DNA of 33,378 bases. Origin: Halomonas sp. Its GTDB lineage: Bacteria > Pseudomonadota > Gammaproteobacteria > Pseudomonadales > Halomonadaceae. A model generated the notes under the pieces. That model did not search any database and was not told the origin of the DNA. It was given only the letters and a program-made list of their open reading frames with translations. The translations under genes were made by a program, and so were the position numbers. This document shows positions 21,005-28,074 of the stretch, one piece after another; position 1 is the first letter of the stretch; every line of letters starts with the position of its first letter. Location of the stretch: the NCBI GenBank assembly GCA_003552795.1, contig PUOM01000038.1, positions 1 to 33,378 of the forward strand, written 5' to 3'.

Positions 21005-21081
21005 GGCGCTCTCCTAAGGTTGCGAGGGCCAGTGTGCCACCCTGCCGGCCCTCTGGCTAACGCCTTGATCCAGTGGTCCTC

Positions 21082-21109
21082 TTGACCCGCTGGAGAAAGC
21101 TGGTAGTAT
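21082..21109 (+). promoter_or_regulatory. Promoter for tRNA-Ser
   Basis: TTGACC (21082-21087), 16 bp, TAGTAT (21104-21109), 15 bp before the tRNA. Confidence 0.6.
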
Positions 21110-21124
21110 TCACCGCCGTAAGCC

Positions 21125-21214
21125 GGAGGGATGGCAGAGCGGTTGAATGCACCGGTCTTGAAAACCGGCAAGGGTTAACGCCCTTCCAGGGTTCGAATCC
21201 CTGTCCCTCCGCCA
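21125..21214 (+). tRNA. tRNA-Ser, anticodon TGA, encoded CCA
   Basis: GGAGGGA/TCCCTCC acceptor, anticodon arm CCGGTCTTGAAAACCGG, long variable arm, GTTCGAATCC T-loop, GCCA end. Confidence 0.96.
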
Positions 21215-21230
21215 CCATATCCAAAGAATC

Positions 21231-21253
21231 AGGCACCTACGGGTGCCTTTTTC
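21231..21253 (+). terminator. Intrinsic terminator after tRNA-Ser
   Basis: AGGCACC-TACG-GGTGCCT followed by TTTTTC. Confidence 0.85.
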
Positions 21254-21292
21254 GTTTCTGGCCATCCTACCCATCATCCTCAGGAGGGCGCC

Positions 21293-21847
21293 ATGGCGCT
21301 GAAGGCCACGATCTGCAAGGCGCGCCTGCAGGTTGCCGACATGGAGCGACACTACTATGGCGAGCACCCTCTGACCATCGCTCGCCACCCGTCCGAGACC
21401 GACGAGCGCATGATGCTGCGCCTGCTGGCCTTCGCCCGTCACGCTCACCCGGATCTGACCTTCGGGCGGGGCGTCAGCGCCGACGACGAGCCGGATCTGT
21501 GGCGCAAGAGCCTCACCGGCGATATCGAGCTGTGGATACAGCTCGGCCAGCCGGACGAGCGGGAGATACGTCGAGCCTGCGGCCGCTCGAGGCAGGTGGT
21601 GCTCTACACCTATGGCGGTCAGGGATCACGGCTCTGGTGGGAGGCGCTGGCCGGCAAGCTGCGCGGCCTGACCAACCTGACCGTCATCGACGTCTCCACC
21701 GAAAGCGTCAGCGAGCTCGGTGGACTCGCGGCCCGGAGCATGGAGCTCAACGCCACCCTCCAGGACGGCATGATCTGGCTGGCCACCCCGGAGGCCTCCG
21801 TGGAGGTCAGCATCGAGATTCGCCAGCAGTCGGCAATGACTCAGTAG
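21293..21847 (+). CDS. yaeQ: YaeQ family protein
   Basis: MALKATICKARLQVADMERHYYGEHPLTIARHPSETDERMMLRLLAFARHA. Confidence 0.92.
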   Translation: MALKATICKARLQVADMERHYYGEHPLTIARHPSETDERMMLRLLAFARHAHPDLTFGRGVSADDEPDLWRKSLTGDIELWIQLGQPDEREIRRACGRSRQVVLYTYGGQGSRLWWEALAGKLRGLTNLTVIDVSTESVSELGGLAARSMELNATLQDGMIWLATPEASVEVSIEIRQQSAMTQ

Positions 21848-23547
21848 AGCCTCAGCCCCACCTTGGTCACGACGTTGCCGTTCATCTCGCTGACCACCCA
21901 GTGAATGCCGTGCCAGTCCACGTCATCCCCCACCACCGGATGCCCGCCCACGCGCAGGGAGATGAAGTCCGCCAGGGTCATCTCCTGCTCCGCCTGACTC
22001 AGCGTCAGACCGTAGGCGTCGGCGATATCCTGCATGCGGGCCTCGCCGGCGAAGGTGAAGGTGCCGAAGAAGGCGCGCTCGCGCTTGAGCTTGGCATCCC
22101 CGTTGAAGAGTCGGTTGAGCGCCGGCAGGTCCTCGCTGCGGCCGATCACGCAGATCACATCGCCCAGCTGCAGGCGGGTGCTCCCCTTGGGATGCAGCAT
22201 CACATGGTCGCGGAACAGCGCCGAAATCAGCGCCCCCGAAGGGAAGCGCAGCAGCCGAATGGGCACATTCTCCAGATCGGAATTCTCCACGTTGTAGACG
22301 AACATCTCGAAATCGTTCTCAGGCAGTATGCCCAGAGGCCCGCGCCGGTTGGGGGTCACGCTGGTGGGCACTTCCACCTTCATCCAGCGCGCCATCCACC
22401 CCAGGGAGCCCCCCTGGATCAGCAGCGAGAGCAGCACCACCGCAAAGGCGACGTTGAAGTAGAGAGAGGCGTTCTCCACGCCGCCGATCACCGGGAAGAT
22501 CGCCAGCACGATGGGCACGGCGCCGCGCAGACCCACCCAGGCGATGAAGCCGGTCTCCCGCCAGCGAAACTTGAAGAAGGGCTTGATGCTGATCAGCACC
22601 GCCAAGGGCCTGGCCACGAAGATCAGCGCCAGCGCCACCAGGGTGGCGGGAAGCGCCAGCTCGAGCAGCTCGCTGGGATTGACCAGCAGGCCCAGCACCA
22701 GGAAGAGGCCGATCTGGCTCAGCCAGGCCAGGCCGTCGTGCACCGGCAGGATGAAGTTGATATGGCGTCCGGGCTGGTTGCCGATCATCAGCCCCGCCAG
22801 ATAGATGGCCAGGAAGCCGCTGCCGCCGAGGAAGCTGGTGATGCCGAACACGCTGAAGCCCAGCGCCAGGGCCAGCAGGGAGTAGAGGCCGGGAGCCAGG
22901 TCCACCCAGCGCAGCAGCTTGCCGCTGAGCCAGCCTCCCCCCACCCCGATCGCCAGCCCCAGGCCGAACTGCTGACCCAGCAGCAGCAGAGTGTCGACGC
23001 CACCGCTCAGCTCCCCGACCAGCATCTCCACCAGCACCAGGGTGAGAAAGATTGCCATGGGGTCGTTGGTGCCCGACTCGATCTCCAGGGTGGCGCCCAC
23101 CCGCTCGTTGAGATTGACCCCGCGGCCGCTGAGCATCGAGAAGACCGCGGCGGCATCGGTGGAACCGACGATCGCCCCCACCAGCAAGCCCTGCAGCAGG
23201 GTGAGGTCGAAGATCCACATGGACAGCACGCCGACGATCCCGCTGGTGATGAAAACCCCCAGGGTGGCCAGCGACAGCGCCGGCCGAAAGCCGACCCGAA
23301 AGGTCTTGAGACGGGTGCGCAGCCCACCGTCCAGCAGGATCATGGCCAGCGCCACATGGCCGAGGGTAAACGCCAGCGAATAATCGTCGAACTGGATGCC
23401 AATCAGCCCCTCTTCCCCCGCCAGCATGCCCAGCCCCAGGAAGATGAGCAGCAGGGGAAAGCCCACCAGGCTGGAGAGACGACTGGCCAGCACGCTGAGC
23501 CCGATCAGCAGGCCGCTGAGTATGAAGAGGCTATTGACGGTGTCCAT
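21841..23547 (-). CDS. cvrA: K+/H+ antiporter, CvrA/NhaP2 family (CPA1 domain plus TrkA-C)
   Basis: GMLAGEEGLIGIQFDDYSLAFTLGHVALAMILLDGGLRT, GAIVGSTDAAAVFSML, TLEIESGTNDPMAIFLT; TrkA-C-like LQLGDVICVIGRSEDLPAL. Confidence 0.9.
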   Translation of the reverse strand: MDTVNSLFILSGLLIGLSVLASRLSSLVGFPLLLIFLGLGMLAGEEGLIGIQFDDYSLAFTLGHVALAMILLDGGLRTRLKTFRVGFRPALSLATLGVFITSGIVGVLSMWIFDLTLLQGLLVGAIVGSTDAAAVFSMLSGRGVNLNERVGATLEIESGTNDPMAIFLTLVLVEMLVGELSGGVDTLLLLGQQFGLGLAIGVGGGWLSGKLLRWVDLAPGLYSLLALALGFSVFGITSFLGGSGFLAIYLAGLMIGNQPGRHINFILPVHDGLAWLSQIGLFLVLGLLVNPSELLELALPATLVALALIFVARPLAVLISIKPFFKFRWRETGFIAWVGLRGAVPIVLAIFPVIGGVENASLYFNVAFAVVLLSLLIQGGSLGWMARWMKVEVPTSVTPNRRGPLGILPENDFEMFVYNVENSDLENVPIRLLRFPSGALISALFRDHVMLHPKGSTRLQLGDVICVIGRSEDLPALNRLFNGDAKLKRERAFFGTFTFAGEARMQDIADAYGLTLSQAEQEMTLADFISLRVGGHPVVGDDVDWHGIHWVVSEMNGNVVTKVGLRLY

Positions 23548-23696
23548 GGCATCCTCGTGGCGGCTAATGGGGCATTATCGCACGCCCCCCGCAGCCGTGC
23601 GACGCCGTCAGCAGGGCTGGTCAGCCCTTCCCTGCAGCGGCTACACTCTGCTGCCGCCAGCCGGCCGTGTGCCGGCACCCCTGCCGGAGCCCCTGC

Positions 23697-25004
23697 ATGT
23701 GCGACCCCGCCCGACCCAAGCCTCTGCCCGTCGTCGCGACCGCTCTCACCCTGCTGATGGCGGCGCTGACAGCCGCAGCGGACGAGGCACCCGTGCCGCT
23801 GGCCATACCCGAGCTCGAGCCGGAGACGCCGGACACCCTGACTCTGGATAGCCGGGTTGTCGTCCCTCGGATGCGGCCACTCGACGCAGGGCCCGAGCAG
23901 GAACTTGGCGACGTCAGGCCCGTGCTACCCGGGGATGAGACCGACAGCGAGGCCAGGGCGCGACCTGGCCTGCCCCGGGCCGGCGACAGGGGCGGCGACA
24001 GGGGCGAGCAGAACGCCACGGCACCGACGCAACCCGACGCCCCCCTGCCCGACGCGGACATCGAGCAGGGCCCCATGGTGACTCTCACTCCCCCCGAGCC
24101 CATTGAGCCGCCGCCGCTCAAGCCCCTGGAGATCATGCTGGACTGGTACCCGGGGCCCCAGCACGCTGCCCTGCTGATCGCTCAGCACAAGGGCATTCTG
24201 GAACGTCATGGTCTGCAGGTGACCCTGACGACCCCTGCCGACCCCGGCCTGCCGACGAGGCTGCTGGCCGCCGGGCGCATCGACCTGGCCGTGAGTCGCC
24301 AGCCGCTGCTGCACCTGCAGGTGGATCGTGGCCTGCCGCTGGCGCGGGTGGGTACCCTGGTCGCGCTGCCCCTGACGGGCCTGCTGCTGCGCGATAACGA
24401 CAGCATCGCGTCGCCGTCGGACCTGGCGGGCAGACGCATCGGCTATTCGGTGGAAGAGAGCAGCGCACTGCTGCTGCCGGCACTGCTCAAGCCCCACGGC
24501 ATCACCATGGACGAGCTGGAACTGGTGGACGTCAACTTTGGTGCCGTGGTCGAGATGGCGGATCAGGAACTGGACGGGGTGTTCACGCCTCAGCACCTCG
24601 CCCTGGCTCGGCGCCTGGGCGACGAGGGCGTCGCCACCCGCCTGGTGCGCCTGGAAGAGCATGGCATTCCTCGCCACGAGGGGCTGATCCTGGTGGCCAA
24701 CCGCGACCGGCTCGGCGCCCAGCAGGAGAGCCTGCGCCGCCTGCTGGATGCCCTGGCCGAGGCCACCGCCTGGAGCCTGGAGCATCCCCAGGCGGCCTGG
24801 GAGCTGCTGGCGGAGAACGAGCCCATCCTGGATACCCCCGCCAACCGCGACACCTGGATGCCCCTGCTGCTGCGACTGAGCGCGCGTCCCGCCGCCCTCG
24901 ATCAGGGTGGCTACGCGCGCTTCGAGGCCTTCCTGCATGAGCAGGGCCTGGTCGAGACCCTGACGCCGGTAGACAAGATGGCGGTCGACGTGGGCGCACC
25001 CTGA
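23697..25004 (+). CDS. NMT1/THI5-like (ThiY-type) substrate-binding protein with long Pro/Asp/Glu-rich N-terminal linker
   Basis: Signal-like N-terminus; EIMLDWYPGPQHAALLIAQHKGILERHGLQVTL; SDLAGRRIGYSVEES. Confidence 0.8.
   Translation: MCDPARPKPLPVVATALTLLMAALTAAADEAPVPLAIPELEPETPDTLTLDSRVVVPRMRPLDAGPEQELGDVRPVLPGDETDSEARARPGLPRAGDRGGDRGEQNATAPTQPDAPLPDADIEQGPMVTLTPPEPIEPPPLKPLEIMLDWYPGPQHAALLIAQHKGILERHGLQVTLTTPADPGLPTRLLAAGRIDLAVSRQPLLHLQVDRGLPLARVGTLVALPLTGLLLRDNDSIASPSDLAGRRIGYSVEESSALLLPALLKPHGITMDELELVDVNFGAVVEMADQELDGVFTPQHLALARRLGDEGVATRLVRLEEHGIPRHEGLILVANRDRLGAQQESLRRLLDALAEATAWSLEHPQAAWELLAENEPILDTPANRDTWMPLLLRLSARPAALDQGGYARFEAFLHEQGLVETLTPVDKMAVDVGAP
23982..24005 (+). repeat. 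Two perfect tandem copies of GGCGACAGGGGC in the linker coding region
   Basis: GGCGACAGGGGC-GGCGACAGGGGC, encoding GDRGGDRG. Confidence 0.7.
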
Positions 25005-27285: not shown

Positions 27286-27969
27286 TCAGGGGCGGGATCT
27301 CGCCGCGGGGGCCGCCGGCGTCTCGGCCTGAGTGGCCGCCACCAGGCGACGGCTCAGGGTCGCCAGCAGCACGCCGTAAAGCGGCACGAAGAACAGCAGG
27401 CTGATGATCAGCTTGATGACATAGTCGACCCAGGCGATCTCCAGCCAGTTGGCCGCCATGAAGGGATCTGGGCTGCTGTAGAAGGCGATCGAAAAGAAGG
27501 CGAAGGTATCCGCCAGGTTGCCCAGCACCGTGGAGACCGCCGGCGCCACCCACCAGGCCTTGAGGCCGCGCAGCCGGTCGAAGACCTGCACATCGAGCAG
27601 CTGGCCCAGCAGGTAGGCCATGAAGCTGGCCACGGCGATACGCGCCACGAACAGATCCCACTCTCCCAGGGCCTCGAGGCCGGCGTAGCTGCCCCGCGGG
27701 AAGACCACCGAGACCACATAGGAGATGACCAGCGCCGGCAGCATGACGCGCATCACGATGGCACGGGCCGGCTCCTTGCCGAAAAGACGCACGGTCAGAT
27801 CGGTGGCCAGGAAGATGAACGGGAAGCTGAAGGCCCCCCAGGTGGTGTGAAAGCCGAACAGCGTAAAGGGCAGCTGTACCAGATAGTTGCTGGCGGCGAT
27901 CACCAGCACATGGAAGCTGATCAGCAGGCCCAGCAGGCGGCGCTGCTGGGCGTCGGAAAGCGCGAACAC
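27286..27969 (-). CDS. yhhQ: Queuosine precursor transporter YhhQ (COG1738)
   Basis: GTG start at 27969 preceded by AAGGA; VQLPFTLFGFHTTWGAFSFPFIFLATDLTVRLFGK, LDVQVFDRLRGLKAWWVAPAVSTVLGNLADTFAFFSIAFY. Confidence 0.92.
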   Translation of the reverse strand: MFALSDAQQRRLLGLLISFHVLVIAASNYLVQLPFTLFGFHTTWGAFSFPFIFLATDLTVRLFGKEPARAIVMRVMLPALVISYVVSVVFPRGSYAGLEALGEWDLFVARIAVASFMAYLLGQLLDVQVFDRLRGLKAWWVAPAVSTVLGNLADTFAFFSIAFYSSPDPFMAANWLEIAWVDYVIKLIISLLFFVPLYGVLLATLSRRLVAATQAETPAAPAARSRP

Positions 27970-27976
27970 GGCGACA

Positions 27977-28009
27977 TCCTTTTTTTGCGGGAGGGGTGAG
28001 GGAACCCTC
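27977..28009 (-). promoter_or_regulatory. Candidate preQ1-I riboswitch aptamer overlapping the yhhQ Shine-Dalgarno
   Basis: mRNA sense GAGGG-UUCCCUCAC-CCCUC-CCGC-AAAAAAA-GGA; H-type pseudoknot possible with loop CCU pairing to tail AGG. Confidence 0.65.
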
Positions 28010-28045
28010 GTGAAACGGGCTGACGGGGTCAGCGTGCGGTCGCGC

Positions 28046-28074
28046 ATTATACGGACCCCACTCGCCGCTGGCCA
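28046..28074 (-). promoter_or_regulatory. yhhQ promoter
   Basis: Minus strand TGGCCA-17 bp-TATAAT (perfect -10). Confidence 0.65.

Follow-up and report, generated by a model that had tools for sequence, protein, structure and literature searches.

Type III of the class I preQ1 riboswitches was reportedly defined by McCown et al. in 2014. Its E. coli yhhQ member binds preQ1 with a Kd of 57.9 nM, was solved at 2.3 Å and gave a 6.1-fold repression of a reporter (PMC10622847). The type III fold contains the pairs U11-A28, C10-G29 and C9-G30, with C14 as the specificity base (PMC10622847). The subtype is recognized by UU following the P1 5′ strand, by AC preceding the 3′ strand, by a loop rich in pyrimidines and by an AAGG tail that pairs with this loop (PMC11625349, PMC10622847). 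Type III elements are almost exclusively gammaproteobacterial and located before yhhQ (PMC10622847), whose product is a transporter of preQ0/preQ1 (PMC5372724).

A type III preQ1 element in the Halomonas yhhQ leader

The window is the whole stretch of Halomonas sp. DNA that was analysed (33,378 nucleotides, contig PUOM01000038.1). On its minus strand, starting from 28009, the yhhQ leader reads GAGGG-UUCCCUCAC-CCCUC-CCGC-AAAAAAAGGA-UGUCGCC-GUG. The element corresponds to 28009-27977 and is separated from the GTG start codon by the seven bases UGUCGCC. We consider it, with a probability of about 95%, to be a class I type III preQ1 riboswitch in the yhhQ 5′ leader acting as a translational OFF switch, for which we infer ligand binding, repression and the promoter. 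It is a new member of a subtype already described, and its novelty is low. The features of the locus are collected in Table 1.

Table 1. Features of the yhhQ locus in the window
Feature	Coordinates	Strand	Basis and remarks
P1 5′ strand, GAGGG	28005..28009	-	Sequence; covariation, 33 distinct hairpins; E. coli positions 1-5, G5 = pocket floor (PMC10622847)
L1, P2 5′ strand and L2, UUCCCUCAC	27996..28004	-	Identical in the E. coli K-12 yhhQ leader; in E. coli numbering U6, U7, C8, C9, C10, U11, C12, A13, C14 (specificity base)
Anti-Shine-Dalgarno CCU (C9, C10, U11)	27999..28001	-	P2 with AGG 27980-27978, by E. coli C9-G30, C10-G29, U11-A28 (PMC10622847)
P1 3′ strand, CCCUC (C15-C19)	27991..27995	-	Sequence, leader comparison, covariation
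Variable linker CCGC, P1 to A-tract	27987..27990	-	1-46 nt in relatives
A-tract (L3)	27980..27986	-	A27 equivalent = 27981, A28 equivalent = 27980 (numbering of PMC10622847)
Shine-Dalgarno AAGGA	27977..27981	-	Sequence; GG to GTG start codon = 8 nt
yhhQ, 7-cyano/7-aminomethyl-7-deazaguanine transporter (QPTR/COG1738), GTG start	27286..27969	-	Profile matches
Predicted sigma-70-like yhhQ promoter	28046..28074	-	-35 TGGCCA 28074-28069, 17-nt spacer, -10 TATAAT 28051-28046

The closest system is that of E. coli K-12. A blastn search of E. coli genomes with the 33-mer gave no match, the query being of insufficient length and divergent both in P1 and in the linker; the E. coli K-12 yhhQ locus was therefore read directly. 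Its leader, UUGGG-UUCCCUCAC-CCCAA-UGGUUAAUC-AAAAAGG, matches the published type III element: it precedes the same gene and contains the linker GGUUAAUC named in PMC10622847. The window element shares with it the loop UUCCCUCAC, a 5-bp P1, the AAAAAGG tail, the CCU/AGG pairing of P2, the location directly upstream of yhhQ and a gammaproteobacterial host. It differs in P1 (GAGGG/CCCUC as compared to UUGGG/CCCAA in E. coli), in the linker (CCGC as compared to GGUUAAUC as published), in the length of the A-tract (seven as compared to five) and in having a GTG start codon.

The whole published type III signature is found in the window element. P1, which has 5-6 bp in type III, has five base pairs here and is closed by a G-C pair at the pocket floor, and AC precedes its 3′ strand (A27997 and C27996, the latter being the C14 specificity base). 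The A-rich tail AAAAAAAGG at 27986-27978 ends with AAGG and is complementary to the loop CCU. Because the nine-base loop is identical to that of E. coli, every base named as a ligand contact has a single counterpart here: the G5-C15 floor at 28005/27995, U6 at 28004, C14 at 27996, A13 at 27997, A27 at 27981 and A28 at 27980. The A27 equivalent, a ligand contact in E. coli, is the first base of the Shine-Dalgarno sequence.

The other described preQ1 riboswitches are more distant. With type II (T. tengcongensis, B. subtilis) the element shares an H-type pseudoknot, AC before the P1 3′ strand and an A-rich L3. However, the T. tengcongensis loop has the purines G8, A10 and G11 whereas the window loop is all pyrimidine except A13; moreover, type II hides only two Shine-Dalgarno bases, and the window element carries the type III signature UU after P1 (PMC11625349). 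Type I, as in the leader L159, also has UU after the P1 5′ strand and can control yhhQ homologues too, but it has a longer loop, a conserved tail C (ACUA) and two ligands, and RF00522 sees L159 and not the window element. PreQ1-II and PreQ1-III (RF01054, RF02680) share preQ1 sensing and masking of the Shine-Dalgarno sequence, with a different fold.

These comparisons bear on the first-pass annotation, which had quoted a candidate preQ1-I element before yhhQ. The quoted sequence is real and exact at 28009..27977, and its assignment to the preQ1-I class agrees with the published type III structure (PMC10622847). The parts that had been recognized, namely P1, the C before its 3′ strand, the CCU/AGG pseudoknot helix and the masking of the Shine-Dalgarno sequence, all match that structure (PMC10622847). 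The likeness to the T. tengcongensis type, or type II, has to be corrected: the loop UUCCCUCAC is without the purines of that type, and the subtype is type III.

Conservation and covariation in yhhQ leaders

The comparison set consisted of 110 distinct yhhQ leaders. All of them retain a paired P1, an A-tract followed by GG and the core GGGUUCCCU..C, which has GAG in two leaders; extraction itself demanded at least four A before GG, and 5-7 A are found in the extracted leaders. The distance from the Shine-Dalgarno GG to the start codon ranges from 5 to 12 nt. In one fetched set of relatives, the element was present at every yhhQ locus. The outer pairs of P1 co-vary, being GAGGG/CCCUC in halomonads, UUGGG/CCCAA in Photobacterium, Vibrio and E. 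coli and AUGGG/CCCAU in Pseudomonas; UCGGG/CCCGA and ACGGG/CCCGU occur elsewhere.

The covariation counts come from the 33 distinct hairpins whose loop has nine bases (alignment A3), because alignment A1 shifts ten-base loops by one column in P1. In A3, 97.6% of the P1 cells are paired as compared to 83.7% after shuffling, and double changes are seen in 17 cells as compared to 2.9 in the shuffles. The P1 covariation score of 0.344 (0.090 shuffled) was reached by none of 500 shuffles and lies above every slid register. The leader alignment that had been proposed as a check thus shows a conserved core and a covarying P1. The positions of UUCCCUCAC are invariant in A3, position 12 excepted. The two strands of P2 are nearly invariant, so that P2 rests on homology and structure, not on covariation.

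A covariance model (R1) built from 18 non-halomonad leaders gave the window element a score of 33.6 bits (E = 4e-6), with no second match in the genome of the window. In a single-sequence fold, P1 is the best helix, at -6.5 kcal/mol with a pair probability of about 0.73. The local fold, judged on this single sequence alone, was no better than shuffles (z = 1.36); the case for the element rests on comparison.

Some relatives depart from the common form. In two leaders (L155, L156), P1 is UGAG/CUCG, in which A-U takes the place of G4-C16, and the linker has only 1-2 nt; among the type III elements seen, these two are the most compact and have diverged furthest. In L119, L120, L122, L127-L130 (Photobacterium), L133 and L150, U or G stands in place of the gatekeeper A13. 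These changes always go with a ten-base loop, which has one extra C before the P1 3′ strand, and the combination is possibly a compensating change of the pocket.

The linker also varies. Its 4 nt in the window compare with a published 8 nt in E. coli, and it is long in many Halomonas/Billgrantia relatives. In L017-L027, L029, L030, L032-L034, L037, L039, L042, L080, L082, L083 and L113 it reaches 19-46 nt instead of 1-13. Most of these long linkers can fold into a hairpin that directly precedes the A-tract; the stem sequences differ, and the z-scores of the single sequences are modest, mostly between 0 and -2.6. RNAalifold found no consensus for the long linkers because their alignment is unreliable, and single folds were used instead. 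Since a variable linker is already allowed by the published consensus, the long linkers are variation and not a new class. They offer natural variants for testing how far the tail of the pseudoknot can stretch.

The Rfam models and a positive control

The first-pass annotation expected a match to the Rfam preQ1-I model and counted its absence as refutation. No Rfam preQ1 match was found at E values up to 10 in the window, in stretches of 600 bp and of 91 bp (the latter surrounding the element) or in the genome as a whole. The gathering score of RF00522 (PreQ1) is 39 bits, which the window element does not reach, and PreQ1-II and PreQ1-III (RF01054, RF02680) had no match in the searched sequence either. 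However, RF00522 also missed the proven E. coli K-12 yhhQ type III element at E values up to 10. The negative result in the window therefore carries no weight as counter-evidence, and absence of a hit with this model is not a valid test; it means only that the element falls outside what RF00522 covers. The model does detect the type I element of L159 (1429-1474), which belongs to a yhhQ homologue, with 31.4 bits, below the gathering score. Both type III elements that were tested, that of the window and that of E. coli K-12, escape RF00522, so that automated annotation with this model overlooks such a switch.

Distribution and link to yhhQ

A strict pattern of the element matches once in the genome of the window, with no control match. 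Of 369 sampled genomes of the class, 7 contain it, immediately upstream of yhhQ in all 7, and the reversed-pattern controls gave none. The covariance model gave hits in 57 of the 398 genomes sampled from the phylum. Every one of these genomes belongs to the class of the window or is a closer relative, and none lies outside that class; a number of this size suggests a wide gap in RF00522 annotation. A yhhQ homologue adjoins each of the 30 model loci that were inspected. This distribution, in gammaproteobacteria and at yhhQ, agrees with that published (PMC10622847).

Several yhhQ homologues (L148, L149, L152-L154, L158, L163, L165-L170) are without the element. In L159, a type I preQ1-I element stands in place of type III, and the subtype thus differs within one gene family. 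Type III in viral contigs was also considered: the two pattern matches lie inside predicted reading frames, the fetched stretches show no yhhQ homologue, and both matches were judged to be chance.

Alternative readings of the conserved stretch

In halomonads, unlike in E. coli, the loop carries a second copy of the P1 3′ strand. The ligand-free halomonad RNA might partly adopt a GAGG/CCUC hairpin competing with P1, as a lineage-specific tuning of type III; we regard such tuning as unlikely. The first-pass annotation suggested that the switch might operate by pairing of GAGGG with either CCCUC copy; such a mechanism, with the 4-bp GAGG/CCUC hairpin as the alternative state, is quite unlikely. 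That hairpin can form here, with a pair probability of about 0.17, and hairpins of its type have 3-5 bp in halomonads. However, it is less stable than P1 (-5.4 vs -6.5 kcal/mol), and a full 5-bp pairing of GAGGG with the first CCCUC is sterically impossible, as only 2 nt would remain for the loop. Competition of this kind is moreover confined to halomonads: the alternative has at most 2 bp in non-halomonads including E. coli, where the loop CCCU is kept though P1 is UUGGG/CCCAA. Since the loop is kept there without the alternative helix, its conservation is for the pocket and for the pseudoknot, that is, for pairing with the Shine-Dalgarno sequence. The proposed choice is thus unsupported.

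The conserved stretch overlaps the ribosome-binding site, and preQ1 binding in the organism of the window is our inference from homologues; another translational control of yhhQ without preQ1 sensing, such as a site bound by a protein or an sRNA, might account for the conservation. We hold this to be very unlikely, as the core is base-for-base identical to the proven E. coli type III aptamer (PMC10622847), P1 covaries and the gene association is as published.

Coding conservation, with the leader as the beginning of a longer yhhQ reading frame that is open in the window up to an in-frame ATG at 28047, or a chance hairpin, has a negligible probability: coding is excluded by mixed frames (core-to-start distances in all three residues modulo 3, 36/29/45) and by in-frame stops inside 36 of the 110 leaders, the predicted -10 box overlaps that ATG, which would not be transcribed, and chance is excluded by the strict-pattern survey of the class, the covariation of P1 and the match to the non-halomonad model.

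Proposed control of yhhQ by preQ1

The yhhQ product matches NF008406 with 350.6 bits (cut-off 252), TIGR00697 with 204.8 bits and Pfam Vut_1 with 122.4 bits, which upholds yhhQ as the target gene; its closest named relatives are from Halomonas. The promoter consensus scan found one site as compared to a mean of 0.0 in 50 shuffles, and in most relatives hexamers resembling a -10 box precede the element, usually by 30-70 nt. From the predicted promoter, the transcript would start near 28039, about 30 nt before the element. The genome encodes Tgt (553.8 bits) and contains a QueF-like match (58 bits, below cut-off), which indicates that preQ1 is probably made and used.

As a type III riboswitch, the element would act on an mRNA beginning at this start. 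At low preQ1 levels, AAGGA and the A-rich tail would remain free and the importer would be made. When preQ1 is present, the ligand would lie on the G5-C15 pair and be read by C14, U6 and A27. Bound preQ1 would then lock the CCU loop (28001-27999) onto AGG (27980-27978), and initiation on yhhQ would be blocked. By homology, this would be an OFF switch in which the ligand directly touches the first Shine-Dalgarno base, and the Halomonas importer would be placed under preQ1 feedback, as in E. coli.

Two further observations concern the surroundings. A propionate/acetate-CoA ligase-like gene lies upstream of yhhQ on the same strand, and the predicted promoter is located between these two genes; 3′ of the ligase gene, at 28112-28089 of the minus strand, a strong GC hairpin, GACGCCGCCCUUCGGGGCGGCGUC, stands without a U-run and perhaps marks the mRNA end of the ligase gene. 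Elsewhere in the window, a tRNA-Ser(TGA) gene (21125-21214, plus strand; Rfam and ARAGORN) lies inside a mechanically listed open frame of 894 amino acids (21073-23757), whose true start is probably farther downstream.
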